Shown here: positions 17,593 through 31,486 of the stretch, piece after piece
Position numbering within the stretch: the stretch's first letter is position 1
Layout: every line of letters starts with the position of its first letter
Assembly: GCA_013152385.1 (NCBI GenBank)
Contig: JAADGL010000016.1
Coordinates: forward strand, 1-47,693
Reading direction: 5' to 3'
Source: Acidobacteriota bacterium
GTDB taxonomy: Bacteria; Acidobacteriota; Holophagae; Thermotomaculales; Thermotomaculaceae
DNA length: 47,693 nt
The notes under the pieces: model-generated
Seen by the model: the letters and a program-made list of their open reading frames with translations, nothing else
Databases searched by the model: none
Told to the model about the DNA's origin: nothing
Program-made: the position numbers and the translations under genes

Positions 17593-20500
17593 ATGAGAAA
17601 AGAAACAAAATTGTTTTTTCTGTTTTTGATTTTGAGTTTAGCGGCAAGTGTCCGGGCGGGGGAAAAAATTTATGACCCTATGGACGTTTTTAAGCGGGAT
17701 GTACCGCCGAACATTCTGGTGGTGGTGGATAACTCCGGTTCCATGAACCAGGACACAAATAACCATAGTATCTATACATTTAACAGTCTTTCTCATGTGT
17801 ATCCCGGCCTCAGCGGTGTTTATTTGTATAGGAGCCGGGCAGCATACAACTATACCAGTAATTTCGGGTCCATGTGGGCATACAATGAGCCGACAGAATA
17901 CGCTTTGAAAAAGTTCGGCGCCATGAAGAGTGCCGCAAACCTCAGTGGGAATAAAACCAAGACCTTTTCATTGCCCATTACTGCTACGGGGAAGGTGAGC
18001 TTTGTGTCTCTTGATATCATGTTTGATGATATCGGAGATGGAATTGACGCGTTGTCGCATGTTACTTCCATGATATTGGAAGATCCATCCGGCCGCCAGG
18101 TACAGATTCTGGATATTATCCAGGGAAAGTACAACCAGACTTTAAGCGGGGTTACCTACTACAATAAAAATTCCAAGAACACCAAGTGGTTGGATCATGT
18201 GAAATATACGCTTTATCACAAATGCTTTCGCATGGCACTTGGCGGTGCGAATATTAATGATGATACGGTTCCGGACAGTGAAAAATACTTTCGGGGGCTT
18301 GAAAAAAATGGTACCTGGCGTCTCATTATTACCCACCATGGTTCGGACAAGCTCTATGTCCGGGCAATTAAACTGGGAATGAACCCGGTACTGTCAAAAT
18401 TTACGGTTTTGAAATCCGTGCTTCAGGACGTGTTCCGCCGGGCGAAAAACGCGAGATTTGCGTTTGGCTGCTATAAAACAGTTTGGCAGTACAGGGGAAA
18501 TCAGCGCCTTCCCGACCATACCAGCCACAATATTTACAGCTACTCCGGCAGCAGGACTGCAACCTATGACGGGGCGCAGATACTGGAAAATTTTCCCTCC
18601 GATCCCATGGCAACTATGGACAACCGGGCCGACATTCTGGACTGGGTGGATATGAGTGTCAATCATAACAATGCCGGGGAGTGGAGCCACTATGCGAATC
18701 CAAGGCCAAAAGATATTTTTGCGTACACCTGGACTCCCATCGGCGGCACATTTCGGGACATTCTCACTGACCTCGGGCCAATTATCAATGGAGACCCATC
18801 CGGGGAATGCCGGAATTATTCTGTGATTTATCTGACAGACGGGTACTGCACACTGGGGCCCTGTGGCAGATCGTATGTTACCGGAAAAATTGCCGATATC
18901 TATCGGATGCATACCGTCAACAAAGATCTGAACGGAGACGGTGTTATTGACAGTGATGATTTTATCCCCACTCCGTCTTATATTATCGGTTTCGCAATGG
19001 GGACAAACTCTAATACATTAAACGCATATGCCGCTGCCGGCCATACGGATGGAAATCCGAACAAGCCGGGGAATCAGGCTTATATGCCGGATGATGCGGA
19101 TTCACTTCTCCAGGTGTTCAAAGATGCGGTGGCCCATGCCAGTACTCAAACCTTTACCGGAGAGACGCAGGTAATTCCGGTAAAATTGAATCCCGACCTT
19201 CAAAATAAGAAGGACAGCAACGGCAGCCCTTATCTTGTCTGGCAGGATCATGTGGAAGATGCCATTATTCAGAGCTTTTTTACCTATTCCAATGGAGATG
19301 GATTTAAAGGTCATCTCCGTGCATATGGAATTTTGAAACCGGACGGCACCCTGCTCGGGAACGCACAGTACCGGCCTATCTGGGATGTGTCTGACTGGAA
19401 AGAAACACTGCGGGATGATCAGGGGCAGCCACTGGCATCGGAACCGGTGGACCGCCGGGGAACCATTGACGAGCGTATTGATCATATCAAGGTTTATCTG
19501 AAGGCGGATCCTACGGAAAATAATTATGTAGGCAGCAGCGCATCCAAGGTGCCTTTCCGGGAATCTTTCCGCTGCATTGTAACTCCAAGTTCCGCAACGA
19601 ATGGCAGCTCGGTTGTTTATCTGAATCAGTATGCCTATGACCACAGAAAACACCGTTATTACCCCTCCTCTCAGTTGATCAGTTTTGTAAAGGGGCGGAC
19701 CGGTATTCAGACTGATGCGGAGACAGTGGAGTTTATTGACTTTCTTCAGACTAAGACCATGGGAGATTCCACCTATTCCACCCCGGCAATTATCGGGGCA
19801 CCGGATTCCCATTACCCTGATGACACCTACAATACCTTTGTGAATGCCCATAAAGACCGGGAAAAAGTTATTTACATCGGAGCAAACGACGGAATGCTCC
19901 ACTGTCTGGATGCCCATACCGGAGATGAGCTCTGGGCCTTTATCCCCTATGATCTGTTTCCGAGGCTGATGAATATCTTCAATGAATACAAACTGACAGG
20001 GGATAAGTCCGGGCAGCCTGACCCGAAGGGTGCAAGTACGGACCCGCTGGGGCGGAAGCCGCACTATTATTATCTTGCTTCATCTCCCCGTTACACTGAC
20101 ATTAAGGACAGCCAGGGCCACTGGATGACGATTCTGACCATTGGAGAGGGCGGCGGCGGAAATTCGTACACCACGCTGAATGTGACCGACCCGGCCATCA
20201 GCGGATTCAACGACGATTTTTACCCGGGCAATGATTCCGTGACGCCGGATGATGCCATGGACAATCCCTCTCGGATCAATCTGGCATATACAATTGACAA
20301 TGGAAATGACTTGTACCTCTGGTCTACCGCTTCCGGCGGAGATTTCAGTGATATGGGCGAAACCTGGTCTACTCCGTCTTATACCCGCTATGACAAAGAT
20401 AAGTTTGTAGGATATTTTGCTTCCGGATATGCGGGATATGGCGGCACCGGCCGTACTTTATACGCGGTGGATTTAAGTAACGGTGAAAAATTGGATGGCA

Positions 20501-21348
20501 AATCAATTTCTTCCGGTCGCAGCATTATGTGTTCACCGGGGGCGCTGATCGGTTCCGACAATACTGTATACGCGGTATATTTCGGAGATACAAAAGGCGG
20601 ATTGTGGCGTTATGTGCCGGATATGAATGGTATTGATTCTCTTGGCAACAGTCATCTGGATAAAATATTTCAGTCTATGTACGATACTACTATTTTTGAT
20701 ACCCCGGCACTGCTGCTGGATTCCAGCGGTGTGGTCTGGATTTCCACCGGGGAGATGGGCTCTGAAGCCGGGGGAAATGTGGTGGATGATTCTGTGCTCT
20801 ATACGGTGAAAGACGATGCCGGCTATGATCAGCATCCGGCACCGGTGTATACCCCTTCGGATATGGTGGACATGAACGCTTTTGAAGCTGCCAACGGTGT
20901 CAATACCGTCGTCAGCCGGGATGATGTAATGGGGCCGGATGACAAAGGTTATTTTTACCAGCTGCCGGTTCGGGAAACCCTTTTTACCAGTCCGATTATT
21001 ACCGGGTATACTCTGAATCAGCTTGCATATACCACAACACTTTATCTGACTTACCGATATCCGCAGGTGGGGAACTATTGTTCTCTTGGTGAGTCAAACC
21101 TGTATATTTTCGGCCTCGCGTCCATGTTTATTGCCGATGAGGAAGGAGATAATAACGGCGCCAATCTGGTGGGTGAAGGGAAGCCGGGAAGCCCCTTTGA
21201 AAGTGAAGCCGGTGATATCTGGCTCAATACGCCCAGCGGCCCGGTTCGTGTGGTCAATGCTCAGGGTGAAGGCCTTGGCACCGGTTCCGCCAGCCAGGAT
21301 GTGAATGCACAGACCCTCGGAAAGAGCGGCGGATGGTATACGAAATGA
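17593..21348 (+). CDS. pilY1: PilY1-type adhesin / pilus assembly factor
   Basis: 1251 aa secreted protein with a signal peptide ending near AASVRAG. Residues about 38-520 form a von Willebrand A-type domain with the MIDAS start DNSGSM (46-51). A dockerin/EF-hand-like loop DLNGDGVIDSDDF lies near residue 445. From about 720 to 1150 is the PilY1 C-terminal beta-propeller, opening with TPAIIGAPDSHYPD and IYIGANDGMLHCLDAHTG. PilY1 sits at the pilus tip, aids pilus extension and acts in adhesion and surface sensing in other bacteria. AAAGGAGG precedes the ATG. The stop overlaps the start of the following pseudopilin gene, so the two are translationally coupled. Confidence 0.93.
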   Translation: MRKETKLFFLFLILSLAASVRAGEKIYDPMDVFKRDVPPNILVVVDNSGSMNQDTNNHSIYTFNSLSHVYPGLSGVYLYRSRAAYNYTSNFGSMWAYNEPTEYALKKFGAMKSAANLSGNKTKTFSLPITATGKVSFVSLDIMFDDIGDGIDALSHVTSMILEDPSGRQVQILDIIQGKYNQTLSGVTYYNKNSKNTKWLDHVKYTLYHKCFRMALGGANINDDTVPDSEKYFRGLEKNGTWRLIITHHGSDKLYVRAIKLGMNPVLSKFTVLKSVLQDVFRRAKNARFAFGCYKTVWQYRGNQRLPDHTSHNIYSYSGSRTATYDGAQILENFPSDPMATMDNRADILDWVDMSVNHNNAGEWSHYANPRPKDIFAYTWTPIGGTFRDILTDLGPIINGDPSGECRNYSVIYLTDGYCTLGPCGRSYVTGKIADIYRMHTVNKDLNGDGVIDSDDFIPTPSYIIGFAMGTNSNTLNAYAAAGHTDGNPNKPGNQAYMPDDADSLLQVFKDAVAHASTQTFTGETQVIPVKLNPDLQNKKDSNGSPYLVWQDHVEDAIIQSFFTYSNGDGFKGHLRAYGILKPDGTLLGNAQYRPIWDVSDWKETLRDDQGQPLASEPVDRRGTIDERIDHIKVYLKADPTENNYVGSSASKVPFRESFRCIVTPSSATNGSSVVYLNQYAYDHRKHRYYPSSQLISFVKGRTGIQTDAETVEFIDFLQTKTMGDSTYSTPAIIGAPDSHYPDDTYNTFVNAHKDREKVIYIGANDGMLHCLDAHTGDELWAFIPYDLFPRLMNIFNEYKLTGDKSGQPDPKGASTDPLGRKPHYYYLASSPRYTDIKDSQGHWMTILTIGEGGGGNSYTTLNVTDPAISGFNDDFYPGNDSVTPDDAMDNPSRINLAYTIDNGNDLYLWSTASGGDFSDMGETWSTPSYTRYDKDKFVGYFASGYAGYGGTGRTLYAVDLSNGEKLDGKSISSGRSIMCSPGALIGSDNTVYAVYFGDTKGGLWRYVPDMNGIDSLGNSHLDKIFQSMYDTTIFDTPALLLDSSGVVWISTGEMGSEAGGNVVDDSVLYTVKDDAGYDQHPAPVYTPSDMVDMNAFEAANGVNTVVSRDDVMGPDDKGYFYQLPVRETLFTSPIITGYTLNQLAYTTTLYLTYRYPQVGNYCSLGESNLYIFGLASMFIADEEGDNNGANLVGEGKPGSPFESEAGDIWLNTPSGPVRVVNAQGEGLGTGSASQDVNAQTLGKSGGWYTK

Positions 21349-21977
21349 TGAGAGTCAAACCGGAAAAGGGATATTCGCTGATAGAAATCCTTGTGGTTAT
21401 TGCCATTCTTGCCATTGTAATGGGGGTTGCGGCATTTTCTTACCGCACCGCCATGCGGGCGACCCGGGTGAAACAGGGCTTGTCCGATCTTTACGACGGT
21501 TTTGTTGCCGCAAGAAGTCAGGCCATCATTCAAAATGGTGAAATTTCTGTGGCCTACAATGCCGGGAGCCGGAGCATTACATTTACCCGAAACGGAACAG
21601 TACTGGACCGGATTGTATTCAGTAAAAGCAATGTAGACCCCGGGCGGCAGGCAGGGGATCAGAATTATCATTTTGAGAAGTACACGGTGCTTCGCAGCAG
21701 TACGCGGGAGGGGGATACGGCGGTTACCGGCCTGGATGTGGATGGAGACGGGTCAACCGACAATATTCCTTTTCTTTCAGCCGGCTCAGTGAATCTGACA
21801 ATTGAGCAGACCGGATTCATCAACGGTGTCGGAAATGCTTCGGCCATTTTAGTGATGCACCAGGGAGATATTGATGATAATGATACCTCCGGTGAACGGG
21901 AGTATGCTCTGGTGATTTTCAGTACCGGGCTTTTGAAAAGGGTTCGGCACAGCTCAACCGGTTGGGAATTGTTCTGA
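21345..21977 (+). CDS. GspH/FimT-type pseudopilin
   Basis: 210 aa. The prepilin signal PEKG|YSLIEILVVIAILAIVMGVAAFSY starts at residue about 8, followed by the FVAARSQAIIQNGEISV segment, the hallmark of GspH/FimT/FimU proteins (an AARSxAi-xxxG-like motif). The later part carries a DVDGDGSTDN loop that may bind calcium. The start at 21345 overlaps the pilY1 stop as ATGA. In the well-known Pseudomonas operon FimU comes first, so its position last, behind PilY1, is unusual. No major pilin or PilE is present in the window. Confidence 0.87.
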   Translation: MMRVKPEKGYSLIEILVVIAILAIVMGVAAFSYRTAMRATRVKQGLSDLYDGFVAARSQAIIQNGEISVAYNAGSRSITFTRNGTVLDRIVFSKSNVDPGRQAGDQNYHFEKYTVLRSSTREGDTAVTGLDVDGDGSTDNIPFLSAGSVNLTIEQTGFINGVGNASAILVMHQGDIDDNDTSGEREYALVIFSTGLLKRVRHSSTGWELF

Positions 21978-22693: not shown

Positions 22694-22840
22694 ATGTTAA
22701 ACCCTATGGCGTTTGTGCCTGAAGATGTTCTGGAAAAGAACACGGTATGCAGCTGCGGCTGGTTAGAGGGCGGCGGGCACAATGGTTGTCAATGTGCGTG
22801 GGTCCACGGAAGAGGAACCGATGAGGTCGAAACTAAGTAG
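22694..22840 (+). CDS. RiPP precursor peptide 1 (CxC-x10-CxC family)
   Basis: 48 aa. The leader begins MLNPMAFVPEDVLEK, and the core has CSCGWLEGGGHNG (19-31) followed by CQCAWVHGRGTDE (32-44): two 13-residue units of the pattern C-x-C-[GA]-W-x2-G-x-G-x3. Of two adjacent ATGs, 22694 is chosen because it gives the leader start shared by all four copies and sits 7 bases after AGGAGG; 22691 would add one Met. A frame open from 22598 has no supporting ribosome site. It is first of four paralogous small genes directly before two radical SAM maturases. Precursor identity is inferred from that context; the modification is unknown. Confidence 0.87.
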   Translation: MLNPMAFVPEDVLEKNTVCSCGWLEGGGHNGCQCAWVHGRGTDEVETK

Positions 22841-22866
22841 AACTCAGTAAATTCAAGGAGGAAAAA

Positions 22867-23016
22867 TTGTTAAATCCAATGGCATTTATTCCGGAGGATA
22901 GTCTGGAAAAAATGGACAAATGTGCTTGTGGTTGGTTTTCCGGTTTCGGAACCGGACATTGTCAGTGTGGCTGGGGAAGTGGAGGGGGGTTGCCCCAGGA
23001 TGAATCTACTAAATAA
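22867..23016 (+). CDS. RiPP precursor peptide 2, TTG start
   Basis: 49 aa starting at a TTG codon, 5 bases after AAGGAGG (22855-22861). Read as Met, the sequence begins MLNPMAFIPEDSLEKMDK, nearly identical to copies 1 and 4. The core holds CACGWFSGFGTGH (19-31) and CQCGWGSGGGLPQ (32-44), the clearest example of the internal duplication: Cys, Gly, Trp, Ser and Gly recur with a period of 13. It starts 26 bp after copy 1. Gene callers are likely to miss it because of its size and start codon. Confidence 0.87.
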   Translation: MLNPMAFIPEDSLEKMDKCACGWFSGFGTGHCQCGWGSGGGLPQDESTK

Positions 23017-23055
23017 GTGCGATTATGCACTTAGAATTGAAATTTGGAGTGATGT

Positions 23056-23223
23056 ATGTTGAAACCGTTAGCTTTTATTCCGGATGAATCAGTAAATTTT
23101 CAGCTTGAGAAAAAGGATAAATGCAGTTGTGGCTGGCTGGAAGGAACCGGTGTAGGGGATTGCCTTTGTGGCTGGTCAGATGGCGGAGGTTTCCCACCTG
23201 ACATTCATCCGATTACCCTGTAA
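23056..23223 (+). CDS. RiPP precursor peptide 3
   Basis: 55 aa. The leader MLKPLAFIPDESVNFQLEKKDK carries a 4-residue insertion relative to copies 1 and 2, but the core spacing is unchanged: CSCGWLEGTGVGD (23-35) and CLCGWSDGGGFPP (36-48), then a short tail. The start is the ATG at 23056, 7 bases after TTGGAGTG; the ATG at 23052 is in another frame. It lies 39 bp after copy 2. That insertions occur in the leader while CxC-x10-CxC is kept points to selection on the core. Confidence 0.87.
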   Translation: MLKPLAFIPDESVNFQLEKKDKCSCGWLEGTGVGDCLCGWSDGGGFPPDIHPITL

Positions 23224-23301
23224 GGAGATAAAGATCTCGGAGATAATAATTCTGAAAAAAAGCAAACTTGAGAGTGCATAGTTTGGCAACTGGAGGTTAG
23301 T

Positions 23302-23460
23302 ATGCTGAATCCAATGGCATTTATTCCGGAAGATGTTGACTTGATGAAGCAAAAACCGGGCTGTTCCTGTGGCTGGTTTCAGGGGGCTGGAACAGGGACT
23401 TGCGAATGCGGCGGGCTTGCCGGCGACGGGTTTCACCTGCCGAAGGAGTCTATGGCATAG
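23302..23460 (+). CDS. RiPP precursor peptide 4
   Basis: 52 aa, beginning MLNPMAFIPEDVDLMKQKPG. The core has CSCGWFQGAGTGT (21-33) and CECGGLAGDGFHL (34-46). The second repeat has Gly where the other three copies have Trp, so any chemistry on that residue would be missing here; all four Cys remain. TGGAGG precedes the ATG. It lies 78 bp after copy 3 and 138 bp before the first maturase gene. Confidence 0.87.
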   Translation: MLNPMAFIPEDVDLMKQKPGCSCGWFQGAGTGTCECGGLAGDGFHLPKESMA

Positions 23461-23478
23461 TATTCCATAACCCATGAT

Positions 23479-23575
23479 GAGTGCCCATATCGTGGAAGTT
23501 TTGTTGTTTGCGCTTTTGCAGTTAAAAGCCTTGGCGGATGCGAAGAAACATTCCCTGTGGGCACTTTTCATTTTT
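23479..23575 (+). promoter_or_regulatory. Structured spacer between precursors and enzyme genes
   Basis: GAGTGCCCATA (23479-23489) can pair with TGTGGGCACTT (23556-23566; 11 pairs, two G-T), and the right arm is followed by TTTCATTTTT, terminator-like. Inside the loop a second hairpin, GCTTTT-N6-AAAAGC (23512-23529), forms. The arrangement suggests a partial terminator or processing site that keeps enzyme expression below precursor expression. There is no open frame here on the plus strand with a ribosome site. Confidence 0.5.
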
Positions 23576-23598
23576 AAATTGCTTCGAGGGAGTAATCA

Positions 23599-24927
23599 GT
23601 GAAATATATTGTTCCGCCTTCTCAAAGGATTTTTCGCAAAGATGAATGGTATTTGTTGTATGATCCTCAAAATATCAAATGGGTGAAGCTAAACGAGGCA
23701 GGATATCTGATCATTCGCCAGTTGGAGAAAACACCGGAGTTGGATCAGGCTATCGAGAAGATTTCGGATGAATTTGGGATTGATGGTAATGCTGTAGTGG
23801 CGTTTGTCGAAAACATGGTGAATGTCGGCTACCTGAGCCGGGGGATGTATGTACAGCGAACTCCCCGCCGGATGATCGCGAATGAGTCGTATCCGGATAT
23901 TCTCTACCTTCATATGACGTATCAATGTAACTTAACTTGTAAATATTGCTATAACTTTAATGAACGTGACCAGTGTATGCGTCAGTCATCATTCCGGGAG
24001 TTGGCGGAGAGTGAGTACATAAGCCTTATTGAAGAAGCAAAGTCCATTGGTGTGAAACAGATTGTGTTTACCGGTGGTGAACCTTTGTTAAACAAAGCTC
24101 TTTTCAGAATTGCAGATTTCTCGAAGTCCATTGGTTTATACAACAGTCTGATTACAAACGGGACCCTGATTTCAAAGCAGAATGCACCTTTGGTTTCAGC
24201 ATCATTCCACCAGGTTTCCGTGAGCATAGACAGCCATTTGCCGGAGCTGAATGATTTGATGAGAGGGGTTGGCAGTTTTGAAAGAGCAATGCGAGGCCTC
24301 CGGCTTCTTCTCGAACATAAAGTAAGTACCTCGGTTCTGGGTGTTGTTTATGAGCACAATATTGATTCTGTGATGGAAACACAACGCTTTTTTCGAGAGG
24401 AAATGGGTTGTTCGTTTTTGGCCCAGTTATACATACCGGAAGATGAGAAGGAGAGAGAAAAAGTCAGAAAGCTCTATACCAGATATGCAGAGATTCGATC
24501 CGCGATAAACAGCTCAAACTGTAGTTTCAGAAGTATGGGTATTTCACCTCTTTGTGGAATGTGTAATGGTGAAATTGCAGTGGGAGCGAATGGAGATGTA
24601 TTTCCGTGCCAATCTCTCTTGGGTGAAGAATTTTGTGGTGGAAATGTAACTCAATTACCACTGAAAGTCATTCTGGACACCTCAACAAAGTTTAAAGGAA
24701 TCAGAAGGTTATCGGTTGATTCTTTTGATGTCTGTAAAGATTGTGACTTTAAATATCTCTGCAGCGGAGGATGCCGGGCGGTACATCACGGATTAACAGG
24801 TGATTTGAAAAAAACCGATTCTGATATTTGTAGAATGAGTAAACATCTGATTCTTGAACTGATGTGGAATTCCGCTTGCAAATCAGTTCAAGAGAAGAAT
24901 ACCGTCGAAATTGGAGAAGGACAATGA
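23599..24927 (+). CDS. Radical SAM/SPASM peptide maturase 1 with N-terminal RRE
   Basis: 442 aa. Residues 1-86 form a PqqD-like RiPP recognition element (DEWYLLYDPQNIKWVKLNEAG, then a helical stretch ending in MVNVGYLSRG). The radical SAM cluster motif CNLTCKYC gives Cys110, 114 and 117, and GGEP is at 159-162. The C-terminal SPASM domain has the expected Cys set for two auxiliary 4Fe-4S clusters: 319, 322, 337 (with G-x4-C), 346, then CKDCDFKYLCSGGC (379, 382, 388, 392) and 411. Such enzymes form thioether, C-C or related crosslinks on peptide substrates. The start is GTG, 6 bases after GAGGGAG. The stop overlaps the next gene as ATGA. Confidence 0.93.
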   Translation: MKYIVPPSQRIFRKDEWYLLYDPQNIKWVKLNEAGYLIIRQLEKTPELDQAIEKISDEFGIDGNAVVAFVENMVNVGYLSRGMYVQRTPRRMIANESYPDILYLHMTYQCNLTCKYCYNFNERDQCMRQSSFRELAESEYISLIEEAKSIGVKQIVFTGGEPLLNKALFRIADFSKSIGLYNSLITNGTLISKQNAPLVSASFHQVSVSIDSHLPELNDLMRGVGSFERAMRGLRLLLEHKVSTSVLGVVYEHNIDSVMETQRFFREEMGCSFLAQLYIPEDEKEREKVRKLYTRYAEIRSAINSSNCSFRSMGISPLCGMCNGEIAVGANGDVFPCQSLLGEEFCGGNVTQLPLKVILDTSTKFKGIRRLSVDSFDVCKDCDFKYLCSGGCRAVHHGLTGDLKKTDSDICRMSKHLILELMWNSACKSVQEKNTVEIGEGQ

Positions 24928-26354
24928 CACACACGGAAACGGCACTCCCGTTACAAGAGTTGAAATCGACTCTGAAACCGAATCAGGAATTCAGTTTGCC
25001 TCCCAAATATTATACTTTTAAAAGGGCTGAATGGTATTTACTCTATGATCCTGCGAATGTTACATGGGTGAGGGTGAATGGGGACGGTTTGAAAATTGTG
25101 AAGGCGTTACAAAAGTTTAATACTCTGGAAATGCTGACAGACCATTTGGCAGAAAACTTTCCGTATGAGTTTCCTGAACGGGAAGAGTTTCGACAGCGGA
25201 TACTGGATTTCCTTTCTTATCTTATCATTGCAGGATTTCTTCATGCCGGTGAATATAAGAATACCGATTTTCCATTTTTTTGCCAGCAAGTTCCAACGGA
25301 AGTGTATCTGCTCATGGAATACAAATGTAATTTGAAATGTAAATACTGTTATAACGAGTCGGATCGGGCAAACTATAACACTAAATCGTTGGATTATCTT
25401 TCATTTGAAGAATATGCACGTCTTGTTGATGAGATGTTTCAAATGGGAATTAAGAAAATTATATTTACGGGGGGAGAGCCGTTACTTAACCCTCTGACTG
25501 TGGATGTTGCGATATATGCGCGCAGAAGCGGCATTGGCACAGAGCTGATTACCAATGGCCAGCTGGTTGAAAAAACGGATGTTGAGAAGATGCGAGATGC
25601 TTTTGATATTGTAACGGTTAGTCTGGATTCAAAGGATCCGGAACTGCATGAGAAGTGGAGGGGAAAAGGGACGTACACTCATACGGTGCATGCTATAGAA
25701 AAAATGAAAGAGAAGAATATTGTTGTACGTGTGAACTCTGTTATCTGTAAGCACAATGTCTCCTCAATGGTGGAAACATGGCGGTATGCATTGGGTGAAT
25801 TGGAGGCTGATTATTATACGCCGGCCTTGTATACACCGACTCTTGGCAGTGATGATGAACTCAGGGAAATGCTTCCAGGCTCGAAGGAGCTGATATCAGA
25901 ACAAAAAAGGGTTCGATCTGTGTTCAAAGATAAGATCGGAGTCGCCTTTAAGTCCGCCGCATTTCGTTTTAGCTGCGGTGTGGCAAACGGGGAAGTGAGT
26001 ATCGGGCCGGATGGCGGTGTATTCCCCTGCCATACGCTGCATAAGCCGGAACTGCTGTGCGGAAATATTCGGGATCATGGATTACAGTACGTTTTGCAAC
26101 ATTCTAAAATTATTGAGGAGTTAAAGAATTTTTCTGTCACTGATATAGAACAATGCAGGAACTGTGACTTTAAATTTTTATGTGGCGGAGGGTGTCTCGC
26201 GATGAATTACAACATGTTCGGCCATTTCGGAAAAGAGAAGAATGTATATTGCAACTATTTGAAACTGGAGCAAATCGAGCGCATGTGGACCAGTACAACG
26301 CTGGGGTTAAACTCTGCCCGAACACCGAATTATGCTTCCGACGGAGGGATTTGA
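24924..26354 (+). CDS. Radical SAM/SPASM peptide maturase 2 with N-terminal RRE
   Basis: 476 aa, a diverged paralogue of the preceding enzyme. The PqqD-like region (about 25-112) shares the AEWYLLYDPANVTWVRVNGDG signature. The radical SAM motif CNLKCKYC gives Cys135, 139, 142, with GGEP at 184-187. SPASM Cys are at 351, 369, 379, then CRNCDFKFLCGGGC (411, 414, 420, 424) and 443; one Cys of the first auxiliary group present in maturase 1 (C322) is Ala here, so cluster ligation may differ. The ATG at 24924 follows GGAGAAGG and overlaps the previous stop; the longer frame from 24864 was rejected. Two maturases for one precursor family suggests two reactions or division between the two core repeats. 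Confidence 0.93.
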   Translation: MTHTETALPLQELKSTLKPNQEFSLPPKYYTFKRAEWYLLYDPANVTWVRVNGDGLKIVKALQKFNTLEMLTDHLAENFPYEFPEREEFRQRILDFLSYLIIAGFLHAGEYKNTDFPFFCQQVPTEVYLLMEYKCNLKCKYCYNESDRANYNTKSLDYLSFEEYARLVDEMFQMGIKKIIFTGGEPLLNPLTVDVAIYARRSGIGTELITNGQLVEKTDVEKMRDAFDIVTVSLDSKDPELHEKWRGKGTYTHTVHAIEKMKEKNIVVRVNSVICKHNVSSMVETWRYALGELEADYYTPALYTPTLGSDDELREMLPGSKELISEQKRVRSVFKDKIGVAFKSAAFRFSCGVANGEVSIGPDGGVFPCHTLHKPELLCGNIRDHGLQYVLQHSKIIEELKNFSVTDIEQCRNCDFKFLCGGGCLAMNYNMFGHFGKEKNVYCNYLKLEQIERMWTSTTLGLNSARTPNYASDGGI

Positions 26355-28159
26355 TGACCGACCTGAAAAGAGATTCTTTTTCCGCCTCTAAACGCAAACG
26401 GATTGATTGGAGATTAATTAGAAGATTTTTTGCCACATTCCGGCCTTATTGGAAATATGCTTACTGGGGTGCAGCGGGCGTGTTGTTTGCTTCGTTGCTG
26501 CAGATTCCGGGCCCTTTTCTGACCGAATATCTGGTTGATTCGGTTTTGCCTCAAAAAAGTAAGAATCTGGTGTTGATTGTCAGTGCCGGGATATTGTTTT
26601 TGTTGGTGTTAAAATCAGTTACAAACATTATCAACAAATACGTCATGACCAAATACAGAGAAGATATGATGATGAAACTTCGGCTTGGATTATTTGAACA
26701 CACATTGAACCAGCCTGTTTCTTTTTTTAAGGCGAATGACACCGGTTATCTTCTTTCGCGTATCTCAAATGATGTTTATCAGACCCAGGGTGTATTCGCG
26801 GACAGCCTTCTTTCTGCGCTGTCAAGTTTATTGACGTTCATGTTCGGGGTGGCGGCCCTGTTTTATATTCATTGGAAAATGGCACTTGTTTCCCTTGCTG
26901 TTCTTCCTGTTTATTTGCTGGTAGGAGATGCATTCGGGTTGAAGGTTAGAATTCATTCGAGAAAAATTCAGGAGAATGCCGCACAAATCGGGGAGTTGAT
27001 AGGTGAGAGTTTGCTGGGTGCTTTTGCGATCAAAATATTTTCTTCCGAACCGGATGTTCACCGGAGAGCGGTGAAACTTTTCGAGAAAGCAAAGAAAGAT
27101 AATATATGGATGGCAGTTCTGAATTCTCTCAACGGCAGTGCCAGCGGCCTTGTCGGAGGGATCGGCAGTTTAATTGTTCTTGGCTATGGCATTATCGAAA
27201 TTATGGGGGGGAGTCTTACCATCGGAAAGCTCATGGCGTTTAATGGTTTTCTCGCATATTTGTATAGTCCTCTGGGCAATTTTTCCGGGCTGTACGGGAA
27301 TGTGCAGAATTCCATTTCTGCAATCGAAAGGATTTTTGAAATTATGAGTTTGCCAAATGAATTTGCCGGTGATGACGGTGAGAATCAAAAAAGCCGGATT
27401 CAAATACAGGGAAGGGTTCGGTTCGAGAATGTTTCATTTTCATATTCGGAAGGAAACAACATAATCAAGAATATGAGTTTTGAAATTCTGCCCGGGGAAA
27501 ATGTGGCGATTGTCGGCAAGACCGGTGCGGGCAAATCTACCCTTATCTCAATGATTCCAAGGCTCTATGAACCAACGTCCGGGGACATCTTTATTGATGA
27601 TTTGCCGTTGACGGAAATTCCAAAAAGGACGCTTCGAAAACAGATCGGGTATGTGTCTCAGGATACTTTTCTGTTCAAAGGTTCTATTTTGGAAAATGTA
27701 AGATTGGGCCGGTCCGATGTAACCAAAGAGGCGGTTGAATCCATTATTGAACCTTCGGGCCTGGGTTCTTTGATGCGCAGTCTTTCGATAAATTTGGATA
27801 CCGAGGTGGGGGTTTTGGGGTCCAAGCTGTCAGGGGGGCAAAAACAATTGATTTCAATTGCACGGGTTATGGTGATAGATCCGCCGCTTATCATCCTGGA
27901 CGAAGCGACTGCTCATATGGATTATGAAACAGAAGAGGCCCTGAAGCGGGCCATCGATGTATTGATTTCCGGCAGGACAACCATAACAATAGCCCATCGT
28001 TTATATACCATTCAGAAGGCTGATAAGATCCTTATGTTGGATGACGGCAATTTGATTGCCATTGGAACGCACGGGCAATTATATGAATCGGTTCCATATT
28101 ACAGGCGTTTTTTTGAGGAGAAGTTCAAGGTTGAAGAGCCGATGGCAAAGCTTGTGTGA
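26354..28159 (+). CDS. ABC exporter, fused membrane and ATPase domains
   Basis: 601 aa. Residues about 25-320 form a six-helix type I exporter domain; 350-590 form the ATPase with Walker A GKTGAGKST (388-396), signature LSGGQ (492-496), Walker B LIILDE (512-517) and the H-loop His in TIAHRL. There is no N-terminal C39 peptidase, so it cannot remove a leader itself, and the precursors carry no double-Gly site. It most likely exports the modified peptide as a homodimer; a drug-export or self-protection role is also possible. The ATG overlaps the maturase 2 stop (ATGA) and has GGAGGG upstream. A frame open from 26180 lies inside maturase 2 and is not the start. Confidence 0.93.
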   Translation: MTDLKRDSFSASKRKRIDWRLIRRFFATFRPYWKYAYWGAAGVLFASLLQIPGPFLTEYLVDSVLPQKSKNLVLIVSAGILFLLVLKSVTNIINKYVMTKYREDMMMKLRLGLFEHTLNQPVSFFKANDTGYLLSRISNDVYQTQGVFADSLLSALSSLLTFMFGVAALFYIHWKMALVSLAVLPVYLLVGDAFGLKVRIHSRKIQENAAQIGELIGESLLGAFAIKIFSSEPDVHRRAVKLFEKAKKDNIWMAVLNSLNGSASGLVGGIGSLIVLGYGIIEIMGGSLTIGKLMAFNGFLAYLYSPLGNFSGLYGNVQNSISAIERIFEIMSLPNEFAGDDGENQKSRIQIQGRVRFENVSFSYSEGNNIIKNMSFEILPGENVAIVGKTGAGKSTLISMIPRLYEPTSGDIFIDDLPLTEIPKRTLRKQIGYVSQDTFLFKGSILENVRLGRSDVTKEAVESIIEPSGLGSLMRSLSINLDTEVGVLGSKLSGGQKQLISIARVMVIDPPLIILDEATAHMDYETEEALKRAIDVLISGRTTITIAHRLYTIQKADKILMLDDGNLIAIGTHGQLYESVPYYRRFFEEKFKVEEPMAKLV

Positions 28160-29681
28160 CCGGTCTTTCAAAGCATTTCTTTTCCTGTCCCTGTTCGCTT
28201 TGGCCTGTTTTTTATTTACACCATACAAAAAAATATTGAACCTTGACACCTGTCTGGTCGTTATTAACGGGAAAGTAATCAGTCAGGAAACTGTGGTGCG
28301 GTTCACCACAGGTTCAATTCTGCAAAGGAAGGTCGTGAATACAAAAATGGATGTAAGCCTGGTCTCGGAAGCTTCATTAAAAATTTTGCCGATTCACCGT
28401 AGTATCAGTTACCGCGAATCTCTTGAATGCACTCCTGTTTCTCTCGTTGTCCGGGAGCGGGTTAAAAATGTTTTGAAAGACGCCATGAATGTGACTTTTA
28501 AGTCTGAATGTTTTTGTGAGGTGAGGGGAACATCAGGGAAATCAGCCCGGTTAAGGAGTAAAAGAAAGGTATTTTCCCCGTGGTCGATATGGAGTTTTAT
28601 TGCGGACCGAAGTCAGCAGCATAAAAAGATTCCACTTCCGGAAACTTTCACGGTTTTTGATGCCTGGTCCGGAAGTTTGGCTGAAATGAGAGTTGATGAG
28701 ATAACAGAAGATGAGAATTTTCCAAATTCAATTCGACCGTTCGTGGTAAGGGGAAGATACAAAGTACCTTCATTTACATATCGTTTTATTGCCTGGGTGA
28801 ATCATGATGGTTTGTGCAAGCGGATTGAATACCCGGACGTATATATGAACAGAATCAGCGTTGATTGGCTTCCATATTTCCCAAATCTTATCGGGAGCGC
28901 AGATACTTTTGATAATTTGTGTGTCGAACACATACGGAATCCGAGACAAGTGCCTGTGTTATGGCTGAAAGTGCTGGGGCATGATGTCCGGGATGTTTTT
29001 AGTGAAGCCGGGCGTTTTTCCCGCCAGACAATTCGGAATGAATCCGATAACGGGCTTCAAATTATGATTCACAAGACACAAAATGCCGAAGAGCAATTAC
29101 AGGTTTACAGCTTTGATTTGAATTTGTCATCGGTAAAAAACTTTTTGGTTTCAACGGCATTTGCGGATTCGGATAATCTTAAGATCAAATCTTTTGTCCG
29201 GTCTTTATCGCAGAAAAGAAAACGCCCGGTTTTGTATATTGTCCGGTCTTTAATTGACCTTGTTACGGATCACTTTTCCCGATCAGGCTCTACGGAAAAA
29301 CCACATGTGGGAATTGTTTCGGGCAGTGAGAGCCTGAATCTTGACAGGGGAGACTGTACCGAATATTCGATTCTTCTTGTTACGCTTTTAAGAGCACTCG
29401 GGATTCCTTCCCGGGTTGTTGCGGGGTTAATTTACGATGATGGAAGATTTTCGTATCACATGTGGGTTCAGGTTTTCGGGAGAAACGGATGGGTTGATGT
29501 TGATCCGGCCTATCATCAGGTGGGGGTGGATGCCACCCATTTTGCGGTGTGCAGTTCTGATCTGAGCAGGAGTTCCGTGCAGAGGATGCAACAGAAAATT
29601 TTTCGTCTTTTGCATCAGATAAAGATTGAGCTTTATACAGAATCGAAGACAACAAAACAATTGGAGGGGAGGCTTAGATGA
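28131..29681 (+). CDS. Membrane-anchored transglutaminase-fold protein, candidate leader protease
   Basis: About 516 aa. An N-terminal segment FLFLSLFALACFLF preceded by Arg/Lys looks like a signal anchor, placing the rest outside the cytoplasm. About 370 residues of unrecognised, beta-rich sequence follow, then a transglutaminase-core domain: Cys409 in DRGDCTEYS, His443 in SYHMWVQVFG and Asp458 in WVDVDP, so the triad is intact. This fold includes real crosslinkers and many Cys proteases. In this operon, which has no other peptidase, leader removal is a reasonable guess. The start is uncertain: TTG 28131 (after GAGGAGAAG) is preferred, TTG 28152 is possible, and both overlap the exporter gene end. 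Confidence 0.8.
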   Translation: MKSRWQSLCDRSFKAFLFLSLFALACFLFTPYKKILNLDTCLVVINGKVISQETVVRFTTGSILQRKVVNTKMDVSLVSEASLKILPIHRSISYRESLECTPVSLVVRERVKNVLKDAMNVTFKSECFCEVRGTSGKSARLRSKRKVFSPWSIWSFIADRSQQHKKIPLPETFTVFDAWSGSLAEMRVDEITEDENFPNSIRPFVVRGRYKVPSFTYRFIAWVNHDGLCKRIEYPDVYMNRISVDWLPYFPNLIGSADTFDNLCVEHIRNPRQVPVLWLKVLGHDVRDVFSEAGRFSRQTIRNESDNGLQIMIHKTQNAEEQLQVYSFDLNLSSVKNFLVSTAFADSDNLKIKSFVRSLSQKRKRPVLYIVRSLIDLVTDHFSRSGSTEKPHVGIVSGSESLNLDRGDCTEYSILLVTLLRALGIPSRVVAGLIYDDGRFSYHMWVQVFGRNGWVDVDPAYHQVGVDATHFAVCSSDLSRSSVQRMQQKIFRLLHQIKIELYTESKTTKQLEGRLR

Positions 29682-30676
29682 CAAAGAAACAGGTAACTTT
29701 ATGGATTTTTTTGACATTGACGGTATGTATCGGATTGACTGTATTTGCTCTGATAAGTTTTGCCCGGACTTCCACCAAAAATGCAAAATTCTGGGGAACC
29801 GAAGTTTATGAGTTGGGCAAAAATGAGACTGATCATGAGATGTTCTATGGGGTGTCGAATGTCTTTTCAGATGAAGATGCCAATATTTATGTGGTTGATC
29901 AGGGGAACCATCGGGTTCAGGTGTTTAACAGGAAAGGAAAATTTCTCCGGACAATTGGCCGGGAGGGGCAGGGTCCCGGAGAATTTATGATGCCCATTGC
30001 CGGAGGATGTTTTCGGGATAAGGTTTTTGTTGCGGATGAAAAAACACAGAGAATACTGGTTTTTGACAGAAAAAACGGCACTCATCTATATGATTTCAAG
30101 TTGAGCGGAACACCGTCGGATTTCTGTATTACCCGATCGGGAGACCTGCTTGTCGGATATATGTCCTCGAACGGGAAAATCATTCATCGTTATAGTACAA
30201 ATGGGGATTATATGTATTCATTCGGCGCACTGGATAACAAATACAAGATGCTCATGTATTTTAATAAAATTTGTACCCTTTCACTGGATAAGGAAGAAAA
30301 CTTATATGTGAGTTATAATTATGTAAATCTGATACAGAAATATGACCGTGGCGGACAGCTTGTCGGTGAAACCGGGACAAATTTTCATTTTGATGATAAG
30401 GCGGGAGTCCATGCGAATGGTTCCGGCGGGTTTCATGCGCGATCAATGTTCTGGTCCTCATTTTATTGTGACGGCTCAATATATCTTGTTACGGCATGCA
30501 GTGGCCCGATTTCAACAATTTTTAAGTTAAATAATTATACGATTATTGTGAGTGCTGATTTCAAAACTCAAAAAGTTATTCGAAATCCATTTCCTGTCTT
30601 GTGCGGATCGGTCTTGACTGACGGACGATTGGCTCTTTGTGATTCGGATTTTGTGCTCCATGTTTTCCGAAGGTGA
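29678..30676 (+). CDS. Membrane-anchored six-bladed beta-propeller (NHL-like) protein
   Basis: 332 aa. An N-terminal hydrophobic anchor (VTLWIFLTLTVCIGLTVFALI) is followed by propeller blades of the NHL/6-bladed type: NIYVVDQGNHRVQVFNRKGKF, REGQGPGEFMMP and KVFVADEKTQRILVFDRKNG are characteristic. Proteins of this kind often accompany radical SAM peptide loci in Gram-negative bacteria, but their role there (binding the product, immunity, partner of the exporter) is not established. The start overlaps the previous stop as ATGA and follows GGAGGGGAGG, so it is the last gene of the coupled run. Confidence 0.85.
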   Translation: MTKKQVTLWIFLTLTVCIGLTVFALISFARTSTKNAKFWGTEVYELGKNETDHEMFYGVSNVFSDEDANIYVVDQGNHRVQVFNRKGKFLRTIGREGQGPGEFMMPIAGGCFRDKVFVADEKTQRILVFDRKNGTHLYDFKLSGTPSDFCITRSGDLLVGYMSSNGKIIHRYSTNGDYMYSFGALDNKYKMLMYFNKICTLSLDKEENLYVSYNYVNLIQKYDRGGQLVGETGTNFHFDDKAGVHANGSGGFHARSMFWSSFYCDGSIYLVTACSGPISTIFKLNNYTIIVSADFKTQKVIRNPFPVLCGSVLTDGRLALCDSDFVLHVFRR

Positions 30677-30697
30677 TTTCGCTTTTTCCAAACAGGG

Positions 30698-30726
30698 AAA
30701 GGGGTTTTGCCGAATGGAACCCTTTT
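30698..30726 (+). terminator. Possible terminator or hairpin after the RiPP operon
   Basis: AAAGGGGTT (30698-30706) pairs with AACCCTTTT (30718-30726), one G-T pair, loop of 11 nt. It lies 22 bp after the propeller gene and is followed by only a few T residues, so it is a weak terminator at best. It would separate the regulator gene from the operon. Confidence 0.4.
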
Positions 30727-30802
30727 GAGTTGTTAATCGGCAATAAGTTCAAAGATGGAAATAAATCTTCTGAAAATTGTCTGTGAAGAAAGGATGTAAG
30801 CA

Positions 30803-31486
30803 ATGAACAGTATGGGAAATACTCTGGTTCAGACTGTGGCGGGGCATCTTGTCTCCGTTTATCATGGTCATGGGTTGGAGTTTTTCCAGTTTGAACTCGA
30901 ATTGCTGATTAATCGGATTCTTGAGTCCACGGATTACGATTCTTCTGCTCTTTCTTCGATTTTGTTTCGCCTGGGGATGAAGATTCTGGAGAAAATGGAT
31001 CTTTCTGAACATGAGTTTGACTGTCATTGCCTTGCGATTATTCATAATATTAATGCGGGGAAAGGGGTAATGGAAAAATGTATTCGTTTTCGGAAGGTCA
31101 TCTTATCATGTCTGTCCCAGAAGGATTCAAACACAAAACTTGCGGTTCGAACCAGGAATTATTTGAAAAATTGTACACTTGACCAGTTGAAAGCGCTGAA
31201 CACCGAAATCCTTGCAGACAGCCTTTCTGTTTCCCGCAGTTATTTATCCCGCTGTTGTCACCGCTTTTTTGGTTACACCCTGTCGGAGATGATTACTTCC
31301 GAACGGATAAAACGTGCTTTTGATTTACTCGGTAATCGTGAGACCGATTATAAAGTGTGGCAGGTGGCTGAAATGGTGGGGTATCAAAATATACATGTTT
31401 TTCGAAAGGTGTTTAAGCAGTATTCCGGTCTGGACCCCGGACGTGTTCGGCAACTGGAACATGATCAGACGGGGGGAAGGTTGTGA
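30803..31486 (+). CDS. AraC-family transcriptional regulator
   Basis: 227 aa. The last ~100 residues are a double helix-turn-helix of the AraC/XylS family (LADSLSVSRSYLSRCCHRFFGYTLSEMI, then WQVAEMVGYQNIHVFRKVFKQYSGLDPG). The N-terminal ~120 residues match no sensor domain I know and include a C-H-C pair and scattered Cys. AAGGATG precedes the ATG. Its place next to the RiPP operon suggests local control, perhaps at the promoter near 22227-22260; note that AraC proteins usually bind direct rather than inverted repeats, so the fit is not assured. Confidence 0.88.
   Translation: MNSMGNTLVQTVAGHLVSVYHGHGLEFFQFELELLINRILESTDYDSSALSSILFRLGMKILEKMDLSEHEFDCHCLAIIHNINAGKGVMEKCIRFRKVILSCLSQKDSNTKLAVRTRNYLKNCTLDQLKALNTEILADSLSVSRSYLSRCCHRFFGYTLSEMITSERIKRAFDLLGNRETDYKVWQVAEMVGYQNIHVFRKVFKQYSGLDPGRVRQLEHDQTGGRL

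Follow-up and report, generated by a model that had tools for sequence, protein, structure and literature searches.

A probable sactipeptide-type RiPP locus with twin CxCG peptides and two radical SAM maturases in the phylum Acidobacteriota

Several described radical SAM systems share features with the locus reported here. The StsA/StsB system of the Streptomycetaceae, described as a sactipeptide system, combines a precursor with a WxxP leader and a Gly-rich core, which starts with CSCG and holds one CxC unit, with a single observed RRE-dependent radical SAM-SPASM maturase and a discrete RRE protein, StsC (PMC12710340). In thuricin CD, a two-peptide Bacillus system, the paired radical SAM enzymes of one cluster (TrnC/TrnD) act jointly, as one complex (PMC12093266). 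Ruminococcin C (RumC1, PDB 6T33) carries four Cys in two hairpin units, its core opening with a CxC, and has several precursor paralogues; its motif is CxC-x16-CxxxC and its enzymes, RumMC1 and RumMC2, are highly homologous. Streptosactin (GggA/GggB), the product of a single enzyme in a streptococcal quorum-sensing locus, contains unnested small rings in which Cys is joined to an alpha-carbon, one of them with Gly as acceptor, and is a precedent for Cys-Gly links. StsB is presumed here to form sactionine links, in line with its NCBI naming and with PMC12710340, where the system is called a sactipeptide; Precord et al. 2023 reportedly describe such links for StsB, and extra sactipeptide groups as well.

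In the window (the whole stretch of 47,693 nucleotides that was analysed), four precursor genes are followed by genes for two RRE-radical SAM-SPASM enzymes, an exporter, a transglutaminase-fold protein, a propeller and an AraC-family regulator (Table 1). All ten genes of this order, proposed in a preliminary description, were located at the coordinates given there. The maturase B gene overlaps that of maturase A by 4 bp, and as a small correction to the earlier call the ABC transporter ORF was found to start at an ATG (26354) overlapping the rS2 stop codon. The start of the transglutaminase-fold gene is uncertain (28083 or 28152).

Table 1. Features of the RiPP locus in the window
Feature	Coordinates	Strand	Leader and core	Evidence and remarks
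Precursor peptide 1, 48 aa	22694..22840	+	leader MLNPMAFVPEDVLEKNTV; core CSCGWLEGGGHNG/CQCAWVHGRG...	RBS aaaggaggtg (strong); alignment with 10 homologues
Precursor peptide 2, 49 aa	22867..23016	+	core CACGWFSGFGTGH/CQCGWGSGGGLP...	TTG start; RBS aaggagg
Precursor peptide 3, 55 aa	23056..23223	+	core CSCGWLEGTGVGD/CLCGWSDGGGFPP...	ORF and paralogue alignment
Precursor peptide 4, 52 aa	23302..23460	+	core CSCGWFQGAGTGT/CECGGLAGDGF...	RBS ctggagg
Maturase A (rS1)	23599..24927	+		RRE, radical SAM (CNLTCKYC) and SPASM, seven Cys
Maturase B (rS2)	24924..26354	+		RRE-like N-terminus, radical SAM (CNLKCKYC) and SPASM
MsbA-like ABC exporter	26354..28159	+		Pfam ABC_membrane and ABC_tran; C39 peptidase domain absent
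Membrane-anchored transglutaminase-fold protein	28152..29681	+		Transglut_core 3.5e-18
Six-bladed beta-propeller (NHL/DUF5128)	29678..30676	+		DUF5128 3.8e-12; N-terminal membrane or signal segment
AraC-family regulator	30803..31486	+		HTH_18 4.8e-15

The four paralogous CxC-x10-CxC precursors proposed earlier were borne out by their coordinates, by paralogue alignment and by a pattern count: translation of the window in all six frames gave exactly four matches to C.C....G.G...C.C....G.G, and 200 shuffles gave none. Peptide 1 aligned over its full length with its three paralogues (46-58% identity). Purine-rich ribosome-binding sequences were present 5' of each precursor gene (4/4), and the differences between paralogues were mostly in the third codon position (14/13/31 for peptides 2 and 3), an excess which fits a selected coding sequence. 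The leader is short and follows the pattern M[LFI]xPxx[FY] (for example MLNPMAFIPED-like), while the core is a tandem pair of the 13-residue unit CxCGxxxGxGxxx, with a period of 13 residues; the motif is better described as twin 13-residue CxCG units than as CxC-x10-CxC. Across 11 precursors from the window and related loci, the invariant residues were M1, P4, all four Cys and all four GxG glycines; the remainder was variable.

The biosynthetic module recurs, since related gene sets were identified in genomes G461, G522 and, more distantly, G060. The locus of G461 (L132), a member of another class of the same phylum, was detected by searching with the transglutaminase-fold protein and then with the maturases. 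Six intact precursors and one truncated copy (L132:9298-9393) were found there, and the gene order is that of the window (precursors, maturase A, maturase B, ABC transporter, transglutaminase-fold protein, propeller), with identities to the window proteins of 44, 48, 52, 28 and 35% for maturase A through to the propeller, respectively. A 362-aa ORF, putatively a transposase, lies directly 5' of this precursor array (L132:9580-10668). The G522 locus (L141) is a contig of 4.3 kb; the genome is fragmented and its host assignment less sure. This contig carries a precursor (MLNPLAFSVEF...CSCEGCCGAGSGGVCLCGSSSGGGAG), a terminator-like hairpin, maturases A and B and the 5' part of the ABC gene. The cassette of G060 (L068:1024-5634) contains genes for a 57-aa Cys-rich peptide, a radical SAM enzyme, a transglutaminase-fold protein, a propeller and an ABC transporter. 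In G172 a single-maturase locus was identified, with a peptide which begins MFNPLAF and has one CxC segment.

A precursor profile gave no convincing match beyond the window among 396 genomes of the phylum and 93 of the class, and with an improved 11-row profile the window was again the sole match; sub-threshold peptide matches from the profile searches (L006-L009) were taken as chance. Contigs scanned with the strict patterns CKYCYN[FE] and F..EWY yielded distant radical SAM proteins only, a single distant radical SAM match came from viral contigs, and neither these nor plasmids contained a precursor. The co-occurrence of peptides and maturases expected from the preliminary description held, homologous precursors being found only beside orthologous maturases, the intact ones always upstream, with no intact precursor away from a maturase in the 396 genomes. 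Other radical SAM loci with small ORFs were observed. At L065:7031-8629 the ORF before a radical SAM maturase ends CAGGGGRCGAGGNCAGY; at L133:3157-6021 a 60-aa Cys-rich peptide adjoins two radical SAM genes, with a transglutaminase-fold gene nearby; and on a Paraclostridium sordellii plasmid (L146:4498-8868) three radical SAM genes and a small ORF adjoin an agr-like autoinducer locus.

Both window maturases possess an intact CX3CX2C motif and seven SPASM Cys, and they are 33% identical to each other. The PqqD/RRE match was above the Pfam cut-off for rS1 (5.3e-7) and below it for rS2 (0.004). In the AlphaFold model of rS1 (pLDDT 78.8) the N-terminus forms an RRE-like beta/helix domain, and the solved structures nearest to the model were CteB (5wgg, the best at E 9e-19), then TigE and SuiB. 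This fold does not fix the chemistry, because CteB makes gamma-thioethers and TigE a different modification. In the maturase tree A and B fell into separate, strongly supported clades (100/99 and 99/99), with G172 as the closest outgroup; the maturases thus form two old orthologous clades. PADLOC matches to viperin were rejected as indicating a defence function, the shared radical SAM domain accounting for them.

The StsB model was the top NCBIfam match for 7/7 maturases. Against this model (NF045574) the window maturases scored 198.3 and 167.7 bits, below the cut-off of 625, which StsB of S. cattleyicolor, the positive control, exceeded with 686.8 bits. Upstream of the latter gene, at this actinomycete StsB locus on the S. 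cattleyicolor megaplasmid, lies a small ORF which is likely StsA (MVSSWIKPDITSAEPQMLPPACSCGCGSGGGGGAGS, with an inferred start). This precursor ends CSCGCGSGGGGGAGS, is of the CSCG/poly-Gly type and has a WxxP leader consistent with that published for StsA (PMC12710340). Scores for PqqE (101.5 bits against 381) and MftC (102.9 against 265) were below the PQQ and mycofactocin cut-offs. Among the 11 precursors, three gave weak, sub-threshold matches to the StsA model (peptide 4 at E 0.022) and one a sub-threshold match to 'sacti_RiPP_CxC'; the best scores were 14.9 bits (NF045558, cut-off 42) and 13.8 bits (NF045559, cut-off 75). No precursor reached any Pfam or NCBIfam cut-off, no curated family holds these peptides, and the CxC twin-unit motif was not mentioned in the literature searched.

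These results, together with the homologues beside orthologous maturases, support the earlier proposal of a radical SAM RiPP locus whose precursors belong to an unnamed family, and the profile check suggested with it returned no strong match to a characterised family. The further statement that the peptides match no named class was too strong, because StsB is the best model and the precursor beside StsB in an actinomycete is of the CxCG/poly-Gly type. As in the sactipeptide class generally, radical SAM-SPASM maturases with an RRE accompany leader-bearing precursors, and as in StsA/StsB the core is Gly-rich with CxCG. In contrast to StsA/StsB, this core occurs in two copies per peptide, WxxP is found in none of the leaders of the family, the RREs are fused to the maturases, of which there are two, and the set of exporter, transglutaminase-fold protein and propeller differs. 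With a shared core, yet two units, another leader and two fused-RRE maturases, the family is judged to be a new sactipeptide-type variant; it looks like a separate new branch of sactipeptide-type, StsA-like RiPPs and not a wholly new class. Ruminococcin C is similar in its four Cys, initial CxC, paired units and multiple precursors, but its spacing and sequence (6T33) differ from the twin CxCG of the window, its two enzymes are far closer to each other than A is to B, and no leader or core homology to it was found. Thuricin CD shares the paired enzymes and has other precursors and leaders, and streptosactin has another motif.

The transglutaminase-fold protein has a Cys-His-Asp triad (GDC / HMW / VDVDP) which is kept in the window, G461 and G060 clusters. 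It resembles the transglutaminase-like core of lasso B2 proteases, with a weak match to the B2 peptidase model (NF033537, 21.8 bits against a cut-off of 33, E 1.9e-4); unlike B2 it is large and membrane-anchored, and a lasso cyclase is absent. Its structure model was too poor for a fold search (pLDDT 47.7). Since the exporter has no C39 domain a separate protease is needed, and this protein is a possible leader peptidase. No obvious immunity gene was identified in the window cluster.

The GC content is 42-44% over about 21.5-32 kb, compared with 47-52% on both flanks. In a genome of the same genus (G268) mutS comes after the pilin operon, and the sequence upstream of purM is a different one, which places the locus at a junction absent from that genome. 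The GC dip and this junction fit acquisition by horizontal transfer. Window positions 17593-21977, directly 5' of the RiPP island, hold a pilin-like gene and a gene for a large protein of 1251 aa which, judged by eye, resembles PilY1 in its features. Exact sigma-54-like -24/-12 sites (TGGCACG-N4-TTGC) were identified upstream of the precursors at L132:10760-10774 (-) and L141:279-293 (+), and in L132 the inverted repeats TGTGACAT/ATGTCACA lie further upstream. Neither a sigma-54 site nor a clear promoter was found near the window cluster, where an AraC-family gene is present instead; this regulator probably controls the cluster locally, and no counterpart was seen beside the other clusters.

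Taken together, the cluster is interpreted, with a probability of roughly 60%, as a biosynthetic operon for a radical-SAM-modified RiPP family, most likely of the sactipeptide type. Maturases A and B would bind the leader motif through their RREs and act jointly on the core in non-redundant roles. Each core Cys would be linked to the alpha-carbon of a nearby residue, perhaps Gly; this would give up to four thioethers per peptide, a mass change of about -8 Da, and a pair of small units in the form of hairpins or rings. With four cross-links and Met retained, the untagged full-length peptides 1 to 4 would have neutral monoisotopic masses of 5195.255, 5201.168, 5911.749 and 5423.344, respectively. 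Since Gly lacks a side-chain carbon, a thioether to one of the conserved Gly could form only at the alpha-carbon. The MsbA-like transporter would export the peptide with its leader attached, and the transglutaminase-fold protein, with its papain-like triad, may then cut the leader outside the cytoplasm, as the lack of a C39 domain in the exporter and the conservation of the triad suggest. The propeller could bind or handle the mature peptide as scaffold, immunity protein or receptor, and the paralogues may form a peptide cocktail, probably directed against competitors or used as signals.

A ranthipeptide-type or other Cys-centred chemistry, with beta- or gamma-carbon thioethers, is unlikely. 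CteB, the closest structural neighbour, is a ranthipeptide maturase, and the PapB and SCIFF maturase models match weakly; the StsB model nevertheless scored 198 bits against 83 for PapB and 79 for SCIFF (TIGR03974, 79.2 bits, cut-off 425), and the peptides have four Cys, compared with six in about 45 residues in SCIFF. Moreover, apart from Cys the conserved residues of the core are Gly, which lack beta- and gamma-carbons; if Gly is the acceptor, an alpha-linkage alone would be possible. It is still less probable that some or all of the four Cys stay free as metal ligands, with radical SAM chemistry taking place at other residues. The CxC pairs do look like metal-binding motifs, and metallophore RiPPs with conserved Cys have been discussed for environmental bacteria (PMC8692599), but the annotated cluster genes included none for metal transport, a DUF692 protein or a metalloregulator, and the StsA-like core and Cys conservation favour thioethers.

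Streptide- or darobactin-like Trp cross-links (cyclophane or ether) at CxCGW would account for the Trp in 7/8 window units and for a weak match of the maturases to the WgkB model; they are very improbable, Trp being missing from many G461 units and both G522 units while Cys and Gly are kept. Short ORFs are common, so chance or non-functional ORFs beside radical SAM enzymes were considered too. The shuffles (0/200), third-position bias, ribosome-binding sites and cross-class conservation with synteny leave this reading almost no weight, and it was refuted by the syntenic homologues.

A speculative and rather unlikely extension is that this is an undescribed RiPP family in which the duplications of maturase and core unit were coupled. 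The related G172 locus combines a single maturase with a single CxC segment, and the three loci of the family have two ancient maturase clades and twin units, so in this reading each enzyme may serve one unit. The transglutaminase-fold protein, which is membrane-anchored, and the propeller would in addition form a dedicated extracytoplasmic maturation or immunity module, undescribed for radical SAM RiPPs as far as was found. The locus contributes a coherent family of precursors and maturases from a phylum in which few peptides have been characterised, and supplies ready substrates with invariant Cys and Gly positions. It makes testable both the division of a repeated core between two divergent radical SAM enzymes and the use of transglutaminase-fold proteins as leader peptidases for radical SAM RiPPs.
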